This document shows positions 16,199 through 28,719 of a stretch of DNA of 55,379 bases, one piece after another; within the stretch, counting starts at the first letter, position 1, and every line of letters starts with the position of its first letter. The notes under the pieces are model-generated. The model was given only the letters and a program-made list of their open reading frames with translations, made no database searches and was not told the DNA's origin. Source of the DNA: Thiobacillus sp. (GTDB taxonomy: Bacteria; Pseudomonadota; Gammaproteobacteria; Burkholderiales; Thiobacillaceae); the NCBI GenBank assembly GCA_020057245.1, contig JAGVGD010000016.1, positions 1 to 55,379 on the forward strand, given 5' to 3'. A program made the position numbers and the translations under genes.

Positions 16199-18166
16199 TC
16201 AGTCACCCATACCCATCACGATGTAACCGGTCGGACACACGTCAGCGCAGATGTGACAGCCAATGCACTTGCCGTAGTCGGTGTCGACATAACGACCCAC
16301 GGTGGGGTTGTCCTTTTTCTTGACCTTGAACACGGCGGTTTGCGGGCAGTAAACAATGCAGTTGTCGCATTCAAAGCACTGACCGCAGGACATGCAGCGT
16401 TTGGCTTCATCGATGGTGTCCTTATCCGACAGCGCATGCAACCGCTCTTCGAAGTTACCCAGTGCGCCTTCCTTGTCCAGCACGGTGACGTCACGAATAT
16501 GACGTGAAACTGCCGGGAAATGGCCCAGGAAAAGTTCGTTATGCGGAATGATGTGGCGAGCCGAACGGTCTTCGAAGTTATGCAACAGATCCTTGCGCTC
16601 GGAGGTGCCCCATTCCTGCGTATGGATTTCGCTGTACTCGTGACCGGTTTCCAGCCATTTACGGATCTGGTCGAAGTGATGGACATCCACTTTCGGACGC
16701 TTGTCGAGCTCTTTTTTGCCGGAGAGGAATGCGTCGATCCCGTCAACCGCAATTGAAGCGTGACCAATAGCCGTGGTCAGCAGGTGCGGACGAATCACGT
16801 CGCCGCCGACAAAAACTTTCTCGCTGCCGGGGAAGCGGTAGTTCTTGTCAGCCTTGATCAGGCCGTTGTTGTTGTTGAACTGCTCGATGCCGGTGAAATC
16901 CACACCCTGTCCAATAGCTGACACGATCAGGTCAGCAGGCAGGTCACGTTCGGTGCCTTCAACCAGCTTGGTTTCCTTGCCTTCCATCACGAAGTCAGAA
17001 ACGCGCAGGGCGGTGGCACGGCCCTTTTCGTCGAGCACGACAGCGATGGGCGTTACGCCACCGAGGATCTCGATGCCTTCTTGCAATGCGTGTTCGATTT
17101 CGTGCTTGCTGGCGTTCATCTTGTCGATGGTAGCGCGCGAAACCAGCACGACTTCAGCGCCGTCACGAACGGAAATCGATGCAACATCGTGAGCCATGTG
17201 GCCAGAAATCACATTTTCAGCACTTGGGCGCTCGTCATTCGTACCCGCTTTGGTCACGTTACCCAGACGACGTGCGACGGTCACAACGTCAATTGAAGTA
17301 TCACCGCCGCCGATCACGACGACGCGGTTGCCGACGTGCTGCAGACGACCTTCGTTAAAGGCGCGCAGGAATGCCACTGCGGTTACGCAGTTCGGTGCTT
17401 CAGCACCGGGCACCGGCAACGGACGGCCAGCCTGTGCGCCCATCGCCAAGAAGATGGCATCAAATTCCTTGTCGATGGCGTCATAGCTGACATCAGTTCC
17501 AACTCGGGTCTTGAGACGCGTTTCGACGCCCATTTCGATGATGCGGCCGATTTCCGAATCAAGCATTTCGCGCGGCGTACGGAAGCCGGGAATGCCATAA
17601 CGCATCATGCCGCCAAGCTCCTCGTGCTCGTCAAAAATGGTCACGCCGTGACCTTTAAGGCGCAGCTGGTATGCCGCAGCCAGGCCGGCCGGGCCAGCGC
17701 CGATGATCGCAACCTTCTTGCCGGTCGAGGCCGCAGCCGGCGTGAATTTCATGTTGTTTTCGATGCCCCAGTCGCCAACAAAATGCTCGACCGAGTTGAT
17801 GCCCACGTGGTCTTCTACCATGTTGCGGTTACAGCCAGACTCACACGGCGCCGGACACACACGACCCATCACAGCGGGAAAGGGGTTGGCCGAAGTAATG
17901 CGCTCGAAAGCATACTGCTGCCAGGTCACGCCTGCCGGCGGCTTCTCGATACCGCGCGCGATATTCAGGTAGCCGCGAATGTCTTCACCTGCCGGGCAAG
18001 AGCCTTGGCAAGGCGGTGTGGACAGCATGTATTCCGGGCACTTGTGCGTCCAGCTGGCCTGGAAAATCTTGTCCTGAGCCGAGCGAATATTCGCCTCGGT
18101 CTCGCCATCCTTATAACGACGCCATGAAACGCCTTCGGTTTTTGCTTTATTCGTCGTGACAGCCAT
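16199..18166 (-). CDS. dsrL: DsrL, FAD/NAD(P) iron-sulfur oxidoreductase
   Basis: GltD-like 'KKVAIIGAGPAGLAAAYQLRLKGH', 'RVVVIGGGDTSIDVV', C-terminal ferredoxin clusters. Confidence 0.95.
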   Translation of the reverse strand: MAVTTNKAKTEGVSWRRYKDGETEANIRSAQDKIFQASWTHKCPEYMLSTPPCQGSCPAGEDIRGYLNIARGIEKPPAGVTWQQYAFERITSANPFPAVMGRVCPAPCESGCNRNMVEDHVGINSVEHFVGDWGIENNMKFTPAAASTGKKVAIIGAGPAGLAAAYQLRLKGHGVTIFDEHEELGGMMRYGIPGFRTPREMLDSEIGRIIEMGVETRLKTRVGTDVSYDAIDKEFDAIFLAMGAQAGRPLPVPGAEAPNCVTAVAFLRAFNEGRLQHVGNRVVVIGGGDTSIDVVTVARRLGNVTKAGTNDERPSAENVISGHMAHDVASISVRDGAEVVLVSRATIDKMNASKHEIEHALQEGIEILGGVTPIAVVLDEKGRATALRVSDFVMEGKETKLVEGTERDLPADLIVSAIGQGVDFTGIEQFNNNNGLIKADKNYRFPGSEKVFVGGDVIRPHLLTTAIGHASIAVDGIDAFLSGKKELDKRPKVDVHHFDQIRKWLETGHEYSEIHTQEWGTSERKDLLHNFEDRSARHIIPHNELFLGHFPAVSRHIRDVTVLDKEGALGNFEERLHALSDKDTIDEAKRCMSCGQCFECDNCIVYCPQTAVFKVKKKDNPTVGRYVDTDYGKCIGCHICADVCPTGYIVMGMGD

Positions 18167-18230
18167 GCTGGTTCTCCTAACGCCTACGTAACTTAAAGAT
18201 AAATAAATCGCAATCAGCTTGCAGCTGAAA

Positions 18231-19754
18231 TCAGTCGAGCTTAATTGCTTTGCTGACCAATTGATGCACCCCGCCCACCATGCTCATGTCGAAGCCATAT
18301 TTGGGCAATACCTTGGTGAACTGCGCTTTACAGATAGCGCAGATCGTGGCCATAAAGTTGACCTGATGTTCCTTGACTACGTTATTTAGGGCAGTAACGC
18401 GTGGTAACGCACCCTTAACCCTGACTTCCATCAAATCATCGGTTAGCAACCCACCTCCACCGCCACAACAGAAGGTGGACTCGTATATGGTGTCGTCCGC
18501 CATGTTATGGAAGTTATTTACCACTGACTTGATCAGTTCACGCGGGATGGTGAATTGGCCACCCGGCTCGGTACCCATGCGTGACGCACGCGCCACATTG
18601 CACGAATCGTGATAAGTCACGATCAGATCGTCGTTAAGCGACGGATCAACCTTGATCTTGCCCGACTTGATCAGGTCATTGGTCAATTCGCAAATATGTT
18701 GCGGCTGCGGATAATTCGGGTCCAATTGCTTCTGCAGTTCAATCGAGAACGGATCATCTGCACCGTAACCAATACCCGTCAGAGTATTCCAGAAGCTGTA
18801 TGCGACACGCCACGCATGGCCACATTCGCCCACGACAATACGTTTGACGCCCAACTCGAGTGCTGCATCGCGAATTCGCATCGCAACTTTGCGCATGGTT
18901 TCGTAATTGCCGTTGAACAAGCCAAAATTGCCGGCCTCGGACGCATGCGTTGAAAGTGTCCAGCTGGTGCCGGCCGCATGAAACACTTTGGCATAGCCAA
19001 TCAGGGACTCAACATGCGGCTCGGAGAAGAAGTCGGCCGAAGGGGTGACCAGCAGCACTTCGGCACCCTTGACATCAATCGGCATTTTTACGGCCACGCC
19101 GGTATCTGCTTCGATATCCTCTTCCAGGCCTTCGAGCGTATCCAGCAACGCCGGACCGGGCAGGCCCAGGTTGTTACCGATTTTCTGCACTTTGCCCAGA
19201 ATTTCGTTGGAGTATTTCTGCCCCATGCCGATGTGGTTCAGAATCTCACGGCCAGCCATGGTGATCTCGGCGGTATCGATGCCATATGGGCAGAACACGG
19301 AACAGCGACGGCATTCCGAACACTGGTGGTAATAGTTATACCAATCGTCGAGCACGTCCTTGGTCAAGTCTTTTGCACCGACCAGCTTCGGGAAGAGCTT
19401 TCCTGCGGTAGTGAAATACCGACGGTAGACCTGGCGCATCAAATCCTGACGCGCAACCGGCATGTTTTTGGGATCCGAAGTACCCAAATAGTAATGACAT
19501 TTGTCAGTACAAGCCCCGCAATGAACGCAGGCATCCAGGAACACTTTCAGTGAACGATACTTGCCCAGCAAGTCGCCCATTTTTTCGAGCGCACTTTCCT
19601 TCCAGTTATCCGCCAGTTCGTGCGGATAACCCATGAAATCCTGGACTGCCTGAGGTGCGATGAATGTCTTGGCGTGAGCCATGACACCTTCCCGCAGCTT
19701 GGGAACCTCGATGTAATCCTTGATCTCGGGAATATCAAATTCAGCAGCAGCCAC
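18231..19754 (-). CDS. dsrK: DsrK, HdrD-like 4Fe-4S protein
   Basis: CVHCGACTDKCHYY, CSECRRCSVFCPYG, CCG-type domain 'ESTFCCGGGGGLL'. Confidence 0.95.
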   Translation of the reverse strand: MAAAEFDIPEIKDYIEVPKLREGVMAHAKTFIAPQAVQDFMGYPHELADNWKESALEKMGDLLGKYRSLKVFLDACVHCGACTDKCHYYLGTSDPKNMPVARQDLMRQVYRRYFTTAGKLFPKLVGAKDLTKDVLDDWYNYYHQCSECRRCSVFCPYGIDTAEITMAGREILNHIGMGQKYSNEILGKVQKIGNNLGLPGPALLDTLEGLEEDIEADTGVAVKMPIDVKGAEVLLVTPSADFFSEPHVESLIGYAKVFHAAGTSWTLSTHASEAGNFGLFNGNYETMRKVAMRIRDAALELGVKRIVVGECGHAWRVAYSFWNTLTGIGYGADDPFSIELQKQLDPNYPQPQHICELTNDLIKSGKIKVDPSLNDDLIVTYHDSCNVARASRMGTEPGGQFTIPRELIKSVVNNFHNMADDTIYESTFCCGGGGGLLTDDLMEVRVKGALPRVTALNNVVKEHQVNFMATICAICKAQFTKVLPKYGFDMSMVGGVHQLVSKAIKLD

Positions 19755-19804
19755 TTGCGAGTCCTCTGTCCGTACTTATGTGTTCGCCAAACGATGTCGG
19801 CGAA

Positions 19805-20557
19805 TCAGTTTTTCTGATCAAGCTTGGCCGCCCAAGCTGCCACATGACGATGCTCACGTGGGTTGTCGGCCTGATTGCGGGTGGGGCTGAAAAATACGCC
19901 AGGCGCATGCAACAGTTTGCTGATCGGGAAAATAAGCATCAGCAACGCCACCAAAGCAAGATGCACCAGCAATATCGGATCCTGCGGCACGGGTTGCACA
20001 TCGAAGTTCATCAAGCCGATAAAGAAAGTCTTGAGTGCAACAATGTCGGTGTGCGCCACAAAGGTCATCATGATTCCGGACAATCCAATCACGATCAACA
20101 GCACAAGCATGAGGTAATCGGATGGGGTGGAAATGTAGCGAACACGATCCACCAGGAAACGGCGAGCCAACAATCCAGCGAGGCCAATGACCATCATAAA
20201 GCTGGCATATTTGCCGAACGGCTGAATGATATTGACCCAGAACCAGACCGGCTCGGTGAAGTAACGCAGATGACGCAACAACACCAACAGCAATCCGAAA
20301 TGGAACATCCAGCCAAACACCCAGATCCATTTGTTGGACTTAAACAGGGATTCGAACAAAACGACTTCTTTCGCCATCCTATAGACCACGCCCGTTTGCG
20401 TGGTCGGCGCAGGCGTGGTCGGGATTTTCAGCGGCGCAGGCGTGCGGCTGTAGTCAAAAATTTTGTACGCCAAGCCCGCTACCAGCAACAGCGTTGCGAT
20501 GTAGAACAAACCGGCATAAATAATCGTCACAGTAGACAAACCCACTCCCCTAACCAC
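19805..20557 (-). CDS. dsrM: DsrM, heme b membrane subunit (NarI-like)
   Basis: Multi-TM with conserved His; between dsrC and dsrK. Confidence 0.93.
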   Translation of the reverse strand: MVRGVGLSTVTIIYAGLFYIATLLLVAGLAYKIFDYSRTPAPLKIPTTPAPTTQTGVVYRMAKEVVLFESLFKSNKWIWVFGWMFHFGLLLVLLRHLRYFTEPVWFWVNIIQPFGKYASFMMVIGLAGLLARRFLVDRVRYISTPSDYLMLVLLIVIGLSGIMMTFVAHTDIVALKTFFIGLMNFDVQPVPQDPILLVHLALVALLMLIFPISKLLHAPGVFFSPTRNQADNPREHRHVAAWAAKLDQKN

Positions 20558-20661
20558 GTATCTGTTTGCGAATCAAACGCCTACGCATTCAATTTGGAAA
20601 CACATCACCAGAATCAAAGTCGCCCCGGAATAAATCCGGGGCGACCCGAATAGACTAAAGC

Positions 20662-20997
20662 TTAGATACAGCCGGTCGGCTTGGGCAAGCCGGCGATCTT
20701 ACAAGCCTGTTTAGCCGGACCGTAGGGGAACAGCTCATACAAGTACTTGTTGTTGCCTTTATCGGGACCGAGCTTCTTGCCGATGGCCTTGGTCAGAACG
20801 CGAACAGCCGGGGCGATCTGATATTCTGCGTAATATTCGCGCAGGAAATTAACCACTTCCCAGTGACCTTCGGTCAAATCAACTTTTTCTTCGACAGCCA
20901 TGTATTTGGCAATATCTTCATTCCACTGCGACAAGTCGATCAGATAGCCTTCTTCGTCAACTTCGTAGTCCTTACCGGCGATGTTCACCATGGGCAT
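20662..20997 (-). CDS. dsrC: DsrC with both conserved C-terminal cysteines
   Basis: C-terminus 'KQACKIAGLPKPTGCI': two Cys 11 residues apart, penultimate Cys present. Confidence 0.97.
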   Translation of the reverse strand: MPMVNIAGKDYEVDEEGYLIDLSQWNEDIAKYMAVEEKVDLTEGHWEVVNFLREYYAEYQIAPAVRVLTKAIGKKLGPDKGNNKYLYELFPYGPAKQACKIAGLPKPTGCI

Positions 20998-21019
20998 AGC
21001 AATACTCCTTTAAATTAAA

Positions 21020-21325
21020 TTACAGCCAAGACTGGCAGCTTTTGTGTTCTGCGACCAGATCCACAAAACCAGCGTAATCCACGACATTGACTCCGTCCAG
21101 CACACGCGCAGCCATGCCACGCGCAGCCAGATCAGGACCGAGTGCGTAAATCTTGAGGTCAGCCGACGCTGCCTGGATTTTCGCTGCTGCCGCGCCGCCA
21201 GTCGTTGCCGCGTAAACCGCGTCTTCAATCAGCAAAACAGCAGAACCTTTAGTGGCCATAGCGAGGCAGCTTTCCAGCGATCCGCGATCTGTGGCCGATT
21301 TATTCACAATATGCAGCATGTTCAA
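21020..21325 (-). CDS. dsrH: DsrH (TusB-like)
   Basis: 'MLHIVNKSATDRGSLESCL', syntenic dsrEFH. Confidence 0.93.
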   Translation of the reverse strand: MNMLHIVNKSATDRGSLESCLAMATKGSAVLLIEDAVYAATTGGAAAAKIQAASADLKIYALGPDLAARGMAARVLDGVNVVDYAGFVDLVAEHKSCQSWL

Positions 21326-21330
21326 TCCCC

Positions 21331-21726
21331 TTAAAAGCTGATCACGACGTCTTGCTCAGCCATGAGATTTGCCATCTCATCGACGGAGAGCACCGTCACA
21401 TCAACAATCAGGTCATCCTCGGTCAAGCCACGTGCATCCATCGACGCTTGATCGACGTACAGCTTTTCGATGTCGTAGCCATCCAGCGCGCGATAGGTCT
21501 TGGAAAAATCCTTAACCTCGATGCCTTTGGTGTCAATGCCCTTCAGCAACTGATATACGCCGTCGTCGGTAAACACCATGCTCACATCCTGATCGAAAGC
21601 CGCCGTAATCAGCACAACTTCCAAACCCTCAAGCGCATACACGGTTCCGTGCGGCGCCTTGCGGTTCAGGAACATGAACTTCTTGACGATGCCAGAACCG
21701 TCATCCATCTCATCCATATCACTCAT
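21331..21726 (-). CDS. dsrF: DsrF (TusC-like)
   Basis: 'KKFMFLNRKAPHGTVYALEGLEVVLITAAFDQDVSMVF', syntenic dsrEFH. Confidence 0.94.
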   Translation of the reverse strand: MSDMDEMDDGSGIVKKFMFLNRKAPHGTVYALEGLEVVLITAAFDQDVSMVFTDDGVYQLLKGIDTKGIEVKDFSKTYRALDGYDIEKLYVDQASMDARGLTEDDLIVDVTVLSVDEMANLMAEQDVVISF

Positions 21727-21737
21727 CTCGTATTTCC

Positions 21738-22097
21738 TTAATCACCGAACGTCACGAGACGGTCGTACTGAATACCCATTTCCACTAATTGACCCAAACC
21801 CGAGATGCGGAAGTTGTCACCCAGAACGCCATCGGTGATGCCGCGACGCTGAGCAGCCGCCACACACACAACCAGATCAACGCCATAATCTGCAGCCAGT
21901 TTGGACCAGCGCGCACCCACATTACGATCGTCTTGCGGCGGCGTAGCCAGACGTGACGCGTTGTATACGCCATCGTGGTAGAAAAAAATACGCGGAACTT
22001 TATAACCCTTTTCGAGCGCGGTCCGCGCAAAAAGGTAGGCCGAATCACTTGCCTGGTGGCTGTAAGGCCCTTCGTTTACAAGAATACCGAATTGCAT
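21738..22097 (-). CDS. dsrE: DsrE (TusD-like)
   Basis: 'MQFGILVNEGPYSHQASDSAYLFARTALEKGYKVPRIFFYHDGVYNA' and 'DLVVCVAAAQRRGI'. Confidence 0.96.
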   Translation of the reverse strand: MQFGILVNEGPYSHQASDSAYLFARTALEKGYKVPRIFFYHDGVYNASRLATPPQDDRNVGARWSKLAADYGVDLVVCVAAAQRRGITDGVLGDNFRISGLGQLVEMGIQYDRLVTFGD

Positions 22098-22170
22098 GTA
22101 ACCACTCCGAAAAATCTATGCTTTTTTGATAGCAACCCCTCCGCGAACCCTTGCGGAGAGGAAGTCCTAA

Positions 22171-23241
22171 TTAGAAGCGGATATGTGCAGAAGCGTTCAG
22201 GTTGGCACGACCACCACGCCAGTTATCAATGTGATACTTGGTAAAGGGAAGGCCGGTTTTCTCGAAGAATGCGGGCCAGCCAATGCGGTCGATCCAGTCG
22301 ATCATGCGCTCCCAAGGCTTTCCGTCTTCCTTGTAGGTGGCGAGGATCTTTTTGACGACTTCAGCGACTTCCGGCCAACGCGGCGCGTTGTTCGGCAGAC
22401 CCGAGGCAACCAGCTTGTGGAAGGTCGGCTTGGAACGAGCGTTGGAGTTTTTGCCACCCACCCAGATTGCAATCTTGGAGTGTTCGGGATCGTTGATCTG
22501 CATCGGTGGGCAGGGCGGGAAGCACGCGCCACAGCAGATGCACTTCTTCTCGTCGACTTCCAGCGAGGGCTTGCCGTTCACCAGAGCGGGGCGGATTGCA
22601 GCCACCGGGCAACGTGCCACGACGGAGGGACGCTCACACACGTTGGCAACCAGATCGTGGTTGATCTTCGGCGGCTTGGTGTGCTGAACGATGATGGCGA
22701 TGTCGGCCTGGCCGCCGCAGTTGATCTCGCAGCAGGAGGTGGACAGCTTGACGCGGTTGGGCATCTCGCACTTGACGAAGTCGTCGTACAACTCGTCCAT
22801 CAGCGCCTTCACCACGCCGGAAGCGTCGGTGCCGGGGATGTCGCAGTGCAGCCAGCCCTGAGTGTGCGCAATCATCGACACCGAGTTGGCGGTGCCACCG
22901 ATGGGGTAACCCTTGTCGTTCAGCGCCTTGATCAGCGGCTCGACCTTGGCGCCGTCAGCAACCATATATTCAATATTGGAACGCGCGGTAAAACGCACGA
23001 AACCGTCGCCATACTGGTCGGCAATGTCAGCCAGTTCGCGAATGGTGTAGTGATCCATCTGGCGAGCCGTACCGGCCTTGACCGTCCAGACTTCGTCGCC
23101 CGATTCGGCACGGTGATACAGAACACCCGGCTTCGGATGGCTGTGGAATGCCCACTTGCCATAGTTTTTCACCATCACGGGGTGCATGTAGGGCATCGGA
23201 TCCGGTGCACCGGATTCGATAGGCGGACGCAGTTCTGCCAT
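22171..23241 (-). CDS. dsrB: Dissimilatory sulfite reductase beta subunit
   Basis: 'LSTSCCEINCGGQADIAIIVQHTKPPKI' siroheme/4Fe-4S motif and ferredoxin insert 'CICCGACFPPCPPM'. Confidence 0.98.
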   Translation of the reverse strand: MAELRPPIESGAPDPMPYMHPVMVKNYGKWAFHSHPKPGVLYHRAESGDEVWTVKAGTARQMDHYTIRELADIADQYGDGFVRFTARSNIEYMVADGAKVEPLIKALNDKGYPIGGTANSVSMIAHTQGWLHCDIPGTDASGVVKALMDELYDDFVKCEMPNRVKLSTSCCEINCGGQADIAIIVQHTKPPKINHDLVANVCERPSVVARCPVAAIRPALVNGKPSLEVDEKKCICCGACFPPCPPMQINDPEHSKIAIWVGGKNSNARSKPTFHKLVASGLPNNAPRWPEVAEVVKKILATYKEDGKPWERMIDWIDRIGWPAFFEKTGLPFTKYHIDNWRGGRANLNASAHIRF

Positions 23242-23323: not shown

Positions 23324-24625
23324 TTAAGCAGCGGACTGCTTGTACTCGTTCCACTTCTCGACTTGCTCATCCCAGTCATCGGAACGGAAGTACGGATTGG
23401 AACGCGGTGCGTTGATCATGTTGGGGTCAACCGGAATATCCAGACCTTCAAGGAAATTGGTCAGACCGATACGCTCAATCATTTCACCAGTACGCTCGTG
23501 CTCCAGCGCATTTTCAGCGAAGAAGTCGAGAATGTTGCGAGCCAGTTCGTTCAGCTTCTCGAAGTCCTCGTCGGACTCAAGCTTCATGAACGGGATCACG
23601 ACGGTGCCCATGGAAGCGCCGATCTTCAGCACGCCCTTGCCACCCACCAAGATCGACACACCCTTGTCTTTACCGGGCAACAAGCCGCCGGGAATGACGT
23701 TCAGGCAATGCATGCAACGCACGCAGTTTTTGTTGTCGATGCACATTGCATTGCCGTCACCCAGATTGGCAACCGACACGCTTGCAGAAGCCTTGACATC
23801 ACTTGCCTTGACCAGGGTAATCGCCTTGGTCGGGCATTTGCTGACCACGTCATTAACCAGATCGGTCATGCCGTGTGCTTTGTAGTAATCCTGAACCTGC
23901 GCTTCGTTGACGCGGATGTTGTCGCGCCAAGTGCCGATGGTTGCCATGTCGGAACGCTGAATGGCGTTCATGCAGTCATTCGGGCAACCCGAGAACTTGA
24001 ACTTGAACTTGTAGGGCAGCGAAGGACGGTGCATGTCGTCCAGGTTGTTGTTAATGACGGTGCGCAGCGCTTTAGCTTCGTCATAGCAAGACATTTCGCA
24101 ACGCGACGCGCCAACACAGGACATCGAGGTACGCAGCGCAGGGCCCGCACCACCCAGGTCGAAACCCATTTCGTTGAAGGCATCGAACGCACCCTGCACG
24201 TCAGCGGTCTTGATGCCCTGGAACATGATGTCGCCGGACTGGCCGTGGAACGCGATCAGACCCGAACCACCTTTTTCGGACCACACGTCACACATTTTGC
24301 GCAGCAGATCGGAACTGTAATGCATGCCTGCGGGCGGTTGCACGCGCAGGGTGTGGAACTCGGCGGCCTCAGGGAACAGCGGCTTGTGGTCTGCATCTTT
24401 CAGCTCAGTGAAGCGGGGGATCACGCCACCACCGTAGCCGAACACACCAACCGTACCACCCTTCCAGTAACCAAACTTGGTCTGGTATGACGTTTCCAGC
24501 TGACCCATCAGGTCAACCATCATGTCGTTATCTTTAGCCAAACGCTTCAGGCCAGTCACGAAACTGGGCCACGGGCCGCTTTCGAGTTGGTCCAGATTGG
24601 GCGTATCAATCATTTGCTTTGCCAT
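23324..24625 (-). CDS. dsrA: Dissimilatory sulfite reductase alpha subunit
   Basis: 'MAKQMIDTPNLDQLESGPWPSFVTGLKRLA', 'SCVGASRCEMSCYDE', 'FSGCPNDCMNA'; ORF-track start at 24763 is probably an upstream extension. Confidence 0.98.
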   Translation of the reverse strand: MAKQMIDTPNLDQLESGPWPSFVTGLKRLAKDNDMMVDLMGQLETSYQTKFGYWKGGTVGVFGYGGGVIPRFTELKDADHKPLFPEAAEFHTLRVQPPAGMHYSSDLLRKMCDVWSEKGGSGLIAFHGQSGDIMFQGIKTADVQGAFDAFNEMGFDLGGAGPALRTSMSCVGASRCEMSCYDEAKALRTVINNNLDDMHRPSLPYKFKFKFSGCPNDCMNAIQRSDMATIGTWRDNIRVNEAQVQDYYKAHGMTDLVNDVVSKCPTKAITLVKASDVKASASVSVANLGDGNAMCIDNKNCVRCMHCLNVIPGGLLPGKDKGVSILVGGKGVLKIGASMGTVVIPFMKLESDEDFEKLNELARNILDFFAENALEHERTGEMIERIGLTNFLEGLDIPVDPNMINAPRSNPYFRSDDWDEQVEKWNEYKQSAA

Positions 24626-24846
24626 GGTCTTCTCTCCTAAGAAAATTTCGAAATGCCCGCTCAGGCAACTGCCCAACGGTATTCCAGCATCGTATTGGCT
24701 CGGCAGCCGCACCACCATCATTCTCTTGGGTAAACGAACTACTCCATGTGGGTAGGTTGACAATCACCCAAGCGAAGTAGACAAGTTTGCCCAATTCGGT
24801 AATGCCTTATTGACGCAAAGCGTGAGACATTACTTCCCCAACGCAT

Positions 24847-25005: not shown

Positions 25006-25227
25006 ATGCCTGAAACCACTTCAATCGACAAGTTTCGACTCCCGTTTGGCGGCCAGGAAATCGAGTTCCAGAATTTTGTCCACGAATCGGGCGGCGTGCC
25101 TTTCCTGCGCATTCGCATCCGTGAGAACAAGCGATTCACCATTTTCGAGGTCGATCCGGGCAGCGCCCAGAAATGGGCTGACATCATGCAGGCATGGGCG
25201 AAGGAACATGCTGGTGATGCGCCATGA
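25006..25227 (+). CDS. Small conserved-looking protein (73 aa), unknown function
   Basis: ATG start MPETTSIDKFRLPFGGQEIEF; ATGA overlap with the next ORF indicates translational coupling. Confidence 0.75.
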   Translation: MPETTSIDKFRLPFGGQEIEFQNFVHESGGVPFLRIRIRENKRFTIFEVDPGSAQKWADIMQAWAKEHAGDAP

Positions 25228-25883
25228 ACTGGGCGAGCTGGCCTGAAGACAAGCCAGAGGAGTATGTCCCCGACATGATCGACCTCCAGTTCGATCTGGT
25301 GGGCACGACCATTCCTGCTGACAACGCTCTGTTACTGTCGGAAGCCTTGCTCACCCAATTGCCGTGGCTGGGCGACGACGACCGCATCGGCATTCAGCAC
25401 CTCAAAGGGGCTGAAACCAATACCGGCGACACCTCGCTCCACATCAACCGGCGTACCAAGCTGTTTCTGCGCGCCCCGAAATCACGCGTGCACGACCTGC
25501 AGCAGCTGGTGGGAAAAACGCTGGATCTGGCCGGCCACGATCTGCAGATCGGCAATTTCAAAACGCGCGCTTTCAGCCCATTCGGCAACATCTATGCCCA
25601 TTTCGTTGACACGGGCAGCGCCAGTGAAGAACAATTCGTGCAGGATGTCATGCGCGAACTGGATGGTCATTTCCAGATCCGCTGCGGGTTTATCTGCGGC
25701 AAGCGGCAGACCTTGAAAAGCGCGTCCGGGCCATTATTTGGCTACAGCCTGATGCTGCACGACGTTCCCCCACACAAATCCCTGCAGCTGCAGGATGAAG
25801 GAATGGGTCGAAACCGTTTGCTGGGCTGCGGAATTTTCATCCCGCACAAATCCATTGCGGCTGTTGTTCAGGCCAATATTTAG
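25224..25883 (+). CDS. Cas6/Cmx6-like RAMP-family protein (stand-alone)
   Basis: 'MIDLQFDLVGTTIPADNALLLSEALL', 'GKTLDLAGHDLQIGNF', 'PFGNIYAHFVD', and C-terminal glycine loop GMGRNRLLGCGIFIPHK matching the Cas6 GhGxxxxxGhG pattern. Confidence 0.75.
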   Translation: MNWASWPEDKPEEYVPDMIDLQFDLVGTTIPADNALLLSEALLTQLPWLGDDDRIGIQHLKGAETNTGDTSLHINRRTKLFLRAPKSRVHDLQQLVGKTLDLAGHDLQIGNFKTRAFSPFGNIYAHFVDTGSASEEQFVQDVMRELDGHFQIRCGFICGKRQTLKSASGPLFGYSLMLHDVPPHKSLQLQDEGMGRNRLLGCGIFIPHKSIAAVVQANI

Positions 25884-25922: not shown

Positions 25923-26255
25923 ATGGGTTACATGTTGAACGGCGAAGAGTTCGAAACCGGCGAAGAAAACTTTCTGCTGGAAGCCAATTTCAGCGACGAA
26001 ATTGTCCCCGTCATCGCTGAGGCCGAAGGCATCAAGCTGACTGACGAGCATTGGCAAGTCGTCAACTATTTGCGTGAAAAGTATAAAGAGGACGGCCAGA
26101 CCCCGAACTTCCGCAACATGGTTGCCGAACTGGATGAACTGCATGAAGGCGTGGACTGGAAGAAAAAGCTGTACGAATTGTTCCCCAACATGCCCGCTCG
26201 CCAGGGCTGTCGCGTTGCCGGCCTGCCCAAGCCGTTTGGCAAGGGCGGCTACTAA
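25923..26255 (+). CDS. DsrC/TusE-family paralog lacking the penultimate Cys
   Basis: 'LTDEHWQVVNYLREKYKEDGQTPNFRNMV...LYELFPNMPARQGCRVAGLPKPFGKGGY'. Confidence 0.93.
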   Translation: MGYMLNGEEFETGEENFLLEANFSDEIVPVIAEAEGIKLTDEHWQVVNYLREKYKEDGQTPNFRNMVAELDELHEGVDWKKKLYELFPNMPARQGCRVAGLPKPFGKGGY

Positions 26256-26333: not shown

Positions 26334-27182
26334 ATGTTCAGCAATACCCTCGTCACCACTGAAGATCTGGCCGCCCATCTGGACGACCCGAACTGGGTCA
26401 TCCTGGATTGCCGTTTTACCCTCACCGACCCCGATGGCGGCAAGCTCACCTACGACAAGGCCCACATTCCGGGCGCGCGCTATGTGCATCTGGACAACGA
26501 TCTGTCTGCCCCCACCCACGAAACCAGCGGGCGCCATCCGCTGCCCGACCCGCGCGTACTGGCCGAGAGGCTTTGCGAATGGGGCGTCGGTGTCAACAAG
26601 CAGGTCGTGGTCTATGACGACAGTTACGGGTCCATGGCGACCCGGCTGTGGTGGATGATGCGCTGGCTCGGCCACCCCGGCGTGGCCTTGCTGGATGGCG
26701 GCTACCCGAAATGGGTGCGCGAGAAACGTCCGGTCAATGCCGAACAGCCAGTGCCGCACCGCGCTGCGTGTGCCTGCCTGCCGGAGCCAAGCCAGATCGT
26801 GACTGCGGTTGAAATCCTCCAGGCGTCGCACTCCGGCGAACAGCTCATCATCGATGCGCGTCCGGATCGCCGCTTCAGCGGTGAATACGAGCCGCTCGAT
26901 CCGGTGGCAGGCCACGTGCCTGGCGCCATCAACTATCCGTTCGACGAGAACCTCGATGTCGACGGCACCTACCTGCCGCCCGAGGCGCTGCGCGAGAACT
27001 ACCAGGCGCTGCTCAAAGGCCGTCCGGCCTGGCAGGTGCTGCACATGTGCGGCTCCGGCGTCACCGCCTGCCACAACATCCTGGCGATGGAAATCGCCGG
27101 CCTGCCCGGTTCACGGCTTTACCCCGGTTCCTGGAGCGAGTGGATCACCGATCCTGCCCGCCCCGTTGCCACAGGAGAATAA
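26334..27182 (+). CDS. Sulfurtransferase (two-domain rhodanese, 3-mercaptopyruvate sulfurtransferase type)
   Basis: Tandem rhodanese domains; active loop 'HMCGSGVTACHN' (CGSGVT of SseA/MST type). Confidence 0.93.
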   Translation: MFSNTLVTTEDLAAHLDDPNWVILDCRFTLTDPDGGKLTYDKAHIPGARYVHLDNDLSAPTHETSGRHPLPDPRVLAERLCEWGVGVNKQVVVYDDSYGSMATRLWWMMRWLGHPGVALLDGGYPKWVREKRPVNAEQPVPHRAACACLPEPSQIVTAVEILQASHSGEQLIIDARPDRRFSGEYEPLDPVAGHVPGAINYPFDENLDVDGTYLPPEALRENYQALLKGRPAWQVLHMCGSGVTACHNILAMEIAGLPGSRLYPGSWSEWITDPARPVATGE

Positions 27183-27185
27183 TTC

Positions 27186-27806
27186 ATGGCCATGCCCATC
27201 CGCGTCAAAACCATCTGGTTCAAGAAAGACGGCGACCGCAGCGCTGAAGAAATTGCCTCGGCCGTGGCCACCACCACCTGGCGCGTAGCCGACAAGGCCA
27301 TCGACAATCTGGGCCGCGAGAACTACGACATCATCACGCCCGAGCGGGGCTTCAAGCTGATTGCCGAATTTCTGGCTTTTCTGGCGCATTACTGCGATCG
27401 CATGGCATATGGATCGCTGTCGCCGGAACGCCGCCTGGCCGTCCTGCAGGCGCTCAGCAACAAGCTCGGCGAAGTAATGGAGCAAAACGTGCGCGAAGTG
27501 GTCGGCAAGGACGATCCGCGCAACTACAAGCAGGAATTCATCGATTTCCTCAACCGTCGTTTTGCCGACTACAGCGAATTCGAGTTCCCCGACGACGAAC
27601 GCGCCAGCTTCCCGGCCTTGCGTTTTCTCGGCCTGCAGATCCGCGACGAAATGGGCGACAACGACAAGACCTGGGTGATGGACCAGATCATGGATATCGA
27701 AATGCCCGAAATGATGGGCACGGTGCGCAAGAGCTTCAAGGGCCTGCTGTCCGACGCGCCGGTCAAGCGCGGTTTCGGCTCGCCCGACATGCTGCCACCG
27801 GAATAA
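27186..27806 (+). CDS. Conserved hypothetical protein (206 aa)
   Basis: Complete ORF, 3 nt after the sulfurtransferase and 7 nt before the TauD-like gene; no family recognised. Confidence 0.85.
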   Translation: MAMPIRVKTIWFKKDGDRSAEEIASAVATTTWRVADKAIDNLGRENYDIITPERGFKLIAEFLAFLAHYCDRMAYGSLSPERRLAVLQALSNKLGEVMEQNVREVVGKDDPRNYKQEFIDFLNRRFADYSEFEFPDDERASFPALRFLGLQIRDEMGDNDKTWVMDQIMDIEMPEMMGTVRKSFKGLLSDAPVKRGFGSPDMLPPE

Positions 27807-27813
27807 GGATCGC

Positions 27814-28719
27814 ATGGCTTCGCCGTTCGACCTCGCAGACGCCACGCGCTACCGCGCCTGGCGCGCAACCAAGCTCGCAACCTACCCCAAAAAAGTAGAC
27901 GAGCTGATCGTGCCGCTGGCCGATCCGCGCGCCCTGACGGCTGCCGAAACCACGGCCCTTGCCGCCGCCTGCGGGCGCGCCAACATGGCGTTCTATCACG
28001 CCCCCCACCTGCCCGCAGCCGACAAATCGCTGCCCCGACTGCTCGCGCAGCAACTGGGGCTGCACCGGCTCGAAGGCAACTACCTCGCCGACGAGGATGG
28101 ACTGTCGAGCATCACGCCGAGCGAAGATGAAGCCAGTCCGCGCGGCGAGTTCATCCCCTACACCCACAAGCCGATCAACTGGCACACCGACGGCTACTAC
28201 AACACGCTCGACCGGCGCATTCTCGGCATGACGCTGCACTGCGCGCAGGATGCCGAAACGGGTGGCGAGAACGCCCTGCTCGACCACGAAATCGCCTACA
28301 TCCAGCTGCGCGACATCAATCCGGACTTCATCGCCGCGCTGATGCAGCCTGACGCGATGACCATTCCCGCGCGCATGGACGAGGACAATATTGCCCGCGC
28401 CGAACAATCCGGCCCGGTATTTGCCGTCGACCCCGAACAGGGTTTCCTCTACATGCGCTACACCGCGCGCACCCGCTCGATCGTCTGGAAAGCCGATCCG
28501 ACCACGCAGGCTGCGGTCAAAACGCTGACCGAGATTCTCGCTGATTCGGAATACACGCTGACCGCCCGGATGACGCCCGGCATGGGGCTCATCTGCAACA
28601 ACGTACTGCATACCCGCAACGGGTTTTCCGATTCGCCCGGCCACCGCAGATTGCTGTATCGCGGACGCTATTACGACCGTTTGCGCTTTGATGCCGCCAC
28701 GCAAACGCGCCCCGCCTAG
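27814..28719 (+). CDS. TauD/TfdA-family Fe(II)/2-oxoglutarate dioxygenase
   Basis: '[10 protein letters not shown]' (HxD) and '[29 protein letters not shown]'. Confidence 0.9.

Follow-up and report, generated by a model that had tools for sequence, protein, structure and literature searches.

A Cas6-family RAMP gene as a near-constant companion of the reverse dsr genes in Gammaproteobacteria

Introduction

The window analysed here, a stretch of 55,379 nucleotides of Thiobacillus sp. DNA, carries a reverse dsr (rdsr) locus for sulfur oxidation, and close to its dsrA gene lies an open reading frame that resembles Cas6. The locus therefore raises the question of whether a CRISPR gene has come to lie beside dsr by accident or whether a protein of the Cas6 family has become part of a sulfur-oxidation locus, and, in the latter case, what it might do there. 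An earlier note, made from the sequence, had proposed a stand-alone RAMP protein of the Cas6/Cmx6 type recruited to the sulfur-oxidation regulon. In the open-access literature searched, no paper on a link between Cas6 and dsr was found; a dsr-linked Cas6 was likewise not mentioned in the term-searched portions of the CRISPR-Cas classification papers of 2011 and 2025 (PMC3150331, PMC12669027), nor in the portions examined of genome papers on sulfur oxidisers.

Results

Identity and fold of the Cas6-like protein

The Cas6-like gene runs from an ATG start to a TAG stop (Table 1), and its product was recognised far above the curated cut-offs by TIGR02807 (cas6_cmx6; 225.9 bits, cut-off 98.85) and by the Pfam family PF09559 (Cas6; 202.4 bits, cut-off 26.7), with several PADLOC Cas6 models matching as well, so that both the reading of the frame as a Cas6/Cmx6-like RAMP and its placement nearest to the Cmx6 type (I-MYXAN) are upheld. 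Its sole relative of solved structure by sequence was a type I-B CAST Cas6 (8fcj), matched at 1e-10 by the single sequence and at 8e-30 by a profile. The AlphaFold2 model, computed from an alignment of 72 homologues, reached a mean pLDDT of 92.5 and a pTM of 0.86 and displays the double ferredoxin-like RAMP fold of solved Cas6 proteins; its top Foldseek matches were 8fcj and 8fcu, both type I-B CAST Cas6 (TM 0.79–0.81, rmsd 2.1–2.5, 24% identity), and the best 41 hits were all Cas6 or Cas6-bearing Cascade entries. The profile and structural similarity to RAMP and Cas6 proteins, on which the earlier note had staked its proposal, was thus found by both routes. Named relatives in the genome scan came from Thiobacillus, Sulfuricella, Gallionellaceae and their kin, the closest (98% identity) from a Thiobacillus MAG. 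Within the genus the dN/dS of the gene ranges from 0.05 to 0.16; the gene is under purifying selection, and these values together with its conservation rule out a chance open reading frame or a decaying relic.

Table 1. The Cas6-like gene and its neighbours in the window
Feature	Coordinates	Strand	Evidence and remarks
rest of the rdsr run: dsrB, E, F, H, C, M, K, L	16199..23241	-	ORFs; same order of homologues in related loci
dsrA	23324..24763 (ORF as listed; profile match ends 24595)	-	TIGR02064 1.8e-148; divergent from the Cas6-like gene
DUF6967 (PF22295), 89 aa	24958..25227	+	Pfam 1.6e-28
Cas6-family (Cmx6-like) RAMP protein, 219 aa	25224..25883	+	TIGR02807 4e-67, PF09559, AlphaFold2 and Foldseek
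DsrC paralog, 110 aa, C-terminus GKGGY, without penultimate redox Cys ('RspA-like')	25923..26255	+	PF04358/TIGR03342
two-domain rhodanese-type sulfurtransferase	26334..27182	+	PF00581; PRK11493 model below cut-off
conserved 206-aa protein	27186..27806	+	no Pfam match above cut-off
TauD/TfdA-type 2-oxoglutarate oxygenase	27814..28719	+	PF02668 1.6e-20

Conserved residues and the candidate active site

Residue conservation was counted over 99 homologues, or over 68 after removal of near-copies. The C-terminal stretch that had been read as a Cas6 glycine loop (G193-x-G195...G201-C-G203) proved to be just that, with G195, G201 and G203 invariant and G193 present in 98 of the 99 homologues. Besides these three glycines, R77 and R83 are invariant, conservation of at least 90% was observed for E135, G159, Q190, G193, C202, F205, P207, H208 and K209, and R198 within the loop is conserved at 76%. 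The conserved loop and the basic residues R77, R83, R198, H208 and K209 are as expected of an RNA-binding surface. Conservation of five of the listed positions, R77, E135, G159, H208 and K209, does not extend to five CRISPR-linked Cmx6 proteins. His59, put forward earlier as the candidate catalytic residue, is present in the protein but fared less well: it occurs in 33 of the 99 homologues, mostly within the genus, and in only 5 of the 68 dereplicated members (7%), and was rejected in that role because the position is unconserved. Position 34 is histidine in 93% of the dereplicated members and in all five cyanobacterial CRISPR-linked Cmx6 proteins, and asparagine in the members from the genus Thiobacillus and in CAST Cas6; position 58 is histidine in 81% of the dereplicated members, and 5 of the 68 have no histidine in the active-site loop. 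These alignments leave catalysis a possibility for the family and cast doubt on it for the Thiobacillus member.

CRISPR context in the window and in the genome bin

No CRISPR array was found in the window by TRF or by a repeat scan that does detect the array in a control locus (L120), and the window contains no other cas gene. The companions of type I-MYXAN, cas3, cas5, cas7 and cas8/cmx8, are absent among the neighbours, which are of the dsr, DUF6967, DsrC, rhodanese and TauD types. The genome bin of the contig (82% complete, 189 contigs) yielded a single match to TIGR02807, no Cas1 and no Cas3 above cut-off. The gene thus stands alone in the window, as the earlier note had claimed, and the bin agrees as far as Cas1 and Cas3 are concerned; the 219-aa protein is a Cas6-family RAMP by fold and sequence, situated outside any CRISPR-Cas system.

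Distribution of the Cas6-like gene and of dsrA

In a sample of 369 genomes spread evenly over the class Gammaproteobacteria (in the GTDB sense, former betas included), the Cas6-like gene was detected in 118, at one place per genome apart from one split match. With dsrA called at E<1e-30, both genes were present in 111 genomes, the Cas6-like gene alone in 7, dsrA alone in 8 and neither in 243 (Fisher p=7e-75, the counts treating genomes as independent, though related ones are not; the tie holds over several dozen families). For cas1 no association was observed, this gene being found in 50 of the 118 carriers and in 85 of the 251 other genomes (p=0.13), so that 68 carriers lack it. The survey of co-occurrence with dsr independent of CRISPR, which had been suggested along with the proposal, therefore bears out the recruitment of a Cas6-fold protein to the sulfur-oxidation locus, the tie to dsrA being near-perfect in distribution and, as described below, also positional, with none to cas1; a gene that always belongs to cas operons and only incidentally adjoins dsr is not what was found. 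Among the 100 relatives scanned, 65 carry the gene, including nearly every member of the genus, and at the level of the order the carriers coincide with the dsrA-bearing genomes. The discordant loci inspected, which cover all but G178 and G337 (dsrA alone, and in fragments), are mostly explained by contig ends: in most of those with the gene and no dsrA (L201, L202, L203, L205, L206 and L109) the contig stops where dsrA would be expected to start, in most of those with dsrA and no Cas6-like gene (L207 and L209–L212) dsrA lies at or near an end, and two clear exceptions were recognised (L204 and L208). Five genomes of 1.0–1.1 Mb keep the Cas6-like gene together with dsr and have no cas1 match.

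Outside the class the gene was found in none of 46 dsrA-bearing genomes from other Pseudomonadota classes. It is also absent from four non-gamma loci, presumably alphaproteobacterial, that show the canonical order of dsr genes; in all of these TauD is divergent from dsrA, and in three of them DUF6967 is present. This absence marks the gene as an addition to the gammaproteobacterial rdsr locus, unneeded for the enzymology itself, and suits a role in expression. In one genome of Burkholderiales (G691), the sole dsrA-bearing genome seen in its family, the Cas6-like gene lies about 430 bp from dsrA, an arrangement which suggests that the locus was transferred in one piece, with the Cas6-like gene included. 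In several genomes of the same genus (G016, G044 and G048) dsrA was detected above cut-off two or three times over, with a single Cas6-like gene beside one of the copies. Most of the dsrA-bearing loci fetched from outside Gammaproteobacteria represent a different locus type, with dsrAB-dsrL and without dsrEFHC nearby.

Layout of the locus and neighbouring genes

A divergent dsrA was observed upstream of the Cas6-like gene in 48 of 56 diverse loci, at a median gap of 1.46 kb; the remaining eight comprise three contig ends and five true separations (L084, L095, L102, L111 and L113), and the genomes of the latter carry dsrA elsewhere. Among the named loci with enough sequence, dsrA lies beside the gene in 63 of 64, the exception being cut off by the end of its contig. 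The gene order in the former betas is dsrA, divergent, followed by DUF6967, the Cas6-like gene, the KGGY-ending DsrC paralog, the rhodanese gene, the 206-aa protein gene and TauD, and in most gammas it is dsrA, divergent, followed by TauD, the Cas6-like gene and the KGGY DsrC. The setting between a divergent dsrA and a dsrC paralog had been described correctly before, except that DUF6967, which lies next to dsrA, had been missed. The rhodanese gene was found in 76 of 77 named beta loci, and every one of the 69 that have enough sequence retains the 206-aa protein, which has no Pfam family. A TauD/TfdA-type oxygenase gene divergent beside dsrA was also seen in many gamma rdsr loci.

The end of DUF6967 overlaps the start of the Cas6-like gene by 4 bp, which makes translational coupling likely. 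The AlphaFold2 model of DUF6967 has a beta4-alpha fold (pLDDT 85.6), and its best Foldseek hits were PUR-alpha repeats, a nucleic-acid-binding fold, at weak significance (E about 0.05 or worse, the best 0.048); an assignment as a PUR-type nucleic-acid binder was not adopted, the match being suggestive only. DUF6967 is a second conserved companion of dsrA, present also outside Gammaproteobacteria.

Wherever the DsrC paralog 3' of the Cas6-like gene was identified (48 of 48), it ends in KGGY and not in the redox cysteine tail. 'RspA' is reportedly the label given to such DsrC-like proteins by Venceslau et al. in 2014. An obligate pair of the Cas6-like gene and the KGGY paralog was rejected, since KGGY DsrC occurs without any Cas6 in four alphaproteobacterial genomes and two carriers of the Cas6-like gene (G404 and G160) gave no KGGY match. 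The redox-dead paralog is thus conserved in rdsr-bearing genomes both within Gammaproteobacteria and beyond (L237–L240).

Hairpins in the dsr spacers

Hairpins with z<-2 were detected in the dsrA-dsrB spacer of 59% of the loci and in the dsrC-dsrM spacer of 70%, in 0% of the dsrH-dsrC spacers, and rarely after the Cas6-like gene. The dsrA-dsrB hairpin is missing in some carriers of the gene (six loci), the intergenic hairpins differ in sequence with no conserved RNA element across the loci, and no Rfam family was found in the locus. A single conserved cis hairpin of the dsr mRNA was accordingly rejected as the substrate; the hairpins, common in some spacers and neither universal nor alike, are possible substrates that fit in part and are not claimed as the substrate. 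In the dsrC-dsrM and dsrB-dsrE spacers, strong hairpins of differing sequence were seen repeatedly, in the window at 20558–20661 and 22098–22170, and many loci have them at dsrA-dsrB as well.

Phylogeny

A tree was built from 68 Cas6 proteins of the dsr type and 6 linked to CRISPR, five of the latter from cyanobacterial plasmids; it splits the dsr-type from the few CRISPR-linked sequences with support of 100/99. The dsr-type clade may have had a single origin, as far as this sequence tree goes.

Discussion

The Cas6-like gene is a near-constant companion of the reverse dsr genes in Gammaproteobacteria, and it is almost certainly a gene of the rdsr locus, with no part in CRISPR. A genuine CRISPR Cas6 that acts in trans on arrays elsewhere, with its adjacency to dsr accidental, would agree with the curated model, which names the protein type I-MYXAN Cas6/Cmx6, and with its closest solved kin, which are subunits of Cascade. 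We regard that account as so improbable as to be nearly negligible, and reject it on the independence from cas1: most carriers have no cas1 and 111 of the 118 have dsrA, the dsr-type clade is separate from the CRISPR-linked Cmx6 proteins, and the location is conserved over several dozen families. The name in the NCBI model, 'type I-MYXAN CRISPR-associated Cas6/Cmx6', has thus credited sulfur oxidisers with a CRISPR gene, and a near-universal gene of the rdsr locus has been overlooked.

As to function, the conserved glycine loop and basic residues suggest, as the most likely role, that the protein binds RNA and that its target lies in the expression of dsr. In the mechanism that we propose, a Cas6-family RAMP would have left CRISPR-Cas and become a single-copy accessory gene of the gammaproteobacterial rdsr locus; its product would bind a structured RNA, and perhaps cut it, this RNA being either transcribed from the dsr regulon or active upon it (the polycistronic dsr mRNA or a small RNA), and so would tune the expression of the sulfur-oxidation enzymes, with DUF6967 and the redox-dead KGGY DsrC as possible co-factors or inputs of sulfur status. 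We infer the RNA ligand, the target, the cleavage and the partners, and give this RNA-acting role, taken as a whole, a probability of about 0.5. In A. vinosum the dsr genes are reported to form a single transcription unit, in which dsrC and dsrS have additional promoters of their own (PMC3368242); there are thus several transcript forms on which an RNA-binding protein could act. Among the observations that count against the RNA-acting role are that reduced genomes, which are prone to lose regulators, keep the gene, a retention that a function in housekeeping or assembly would explain as well, and that five genomes keep it unlinked from dsr. Given these five genomes, the variable histidine loop and hairpins that are not shared by all loci, the proposal of a dsr RNA draws mainly on the fold and the location.

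Retention in reduced genomes is also among the points that favour a role at the level of protein, in which the RAMP would no longer act on RNA and would instead support Dsr proteins (DsrAB, DsrC or the KGGY paralog) as their scaffold or chaperone. Such a role would further suit the usual adjacency to a DsrC paralog without redox cysteine, the residues outside the glycine loop that are conserved specifically in the subfamily (E135 and G159) and a catalytic-site histidine that is not invariant; it is rather unlikely in our judgement, as invariance is seen in the glycine-rich loop and in several basic residues, and the pairing with the KGGY paralog is not obligate. Still less probable is a unit for tRNA or rRNA modification, or for sulfur trafficking to tRNA, formed by the Cas6-like, DsrC/TusE-like, rhodanese and 2-oxoglutarate oxygenase genes. 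The gene set does join an RNA-binding fold with TusE/DsrC kin, a rhodanese and TauD, but the KGGY DsrC lacks the terminal sulfur-carrying cysteine, and the Cas6-like gene is confined to dsr-bearing genomes, whereas tRNA thiolation is widespread.

Returning to the RNA-acting role, we suggest tentatively, at somewhat less than even odds, that a fold for CRISPR RNA processing was taken over roughly a single time by early dsr-bearing Gammaproteobacteria and dedicated to lithotrophic sulfur oxidation, which it would serve as a nuclease or as a regulator that binds RNA. This makes an RNA-level component of gammaproteobacterial sulfur lithotrophy a testable claim and, if true, would mean that the sulfur cycle has a layer of post-transcriptional control that has so far gone unrecognised. 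Owing to its tight match to dsrA, the gene can also be used as a marker for the gammaproteobacterial rdsr locus.

Compared with known systems, the dsr-linked proteins share profile family (TIGR02807), length, glycine-rich loop and fold with the type I-MYXAN Cas6/Cmx6 of cyanobacterial plasmids (L116–L120), at 25–29% identity; the cyanobacterial genes precede cas3, cmx8/cas8, cas7 and cas5, whereas the dsr set is without all of these, forms its own clade and has residues not common to Cmx6 (R77, E135, G159 and H208-K209). The best structural match, the type I-B CAST Cas6 (PDB 8fcj, 8fcu), is a subunit of a Cascade/transposon system, while no Cascade genes lie near the dsr-linked gene. The accessory proteins of rDsr (DsrR, DsrS, DsrN and DsrC paralogs) are likewise small, encoded in the dsr cluster and accessory to the core enzymes, but none of them is a RAMP; the A. 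vinosum cluster, dsrABEFHCMKLJOPNRS (Alvin_1251-1265), has no Cas6 described in it (PMC3368242). Solo-Cas4, Cas1-solo and other exapted Cas proteins also belong to Cas families outside CRISPR loci (PMC5704561, PMC9939771); these cases are described as tied to mobile elements or as scattered outside cas loci, whereas the partner of the Cas6-like gene is a core energy-metabolism locus. It is thus a rare clean instance in which a protein of a Cas family is linked to a central pathway of energy metabolism and not to a mobile element.
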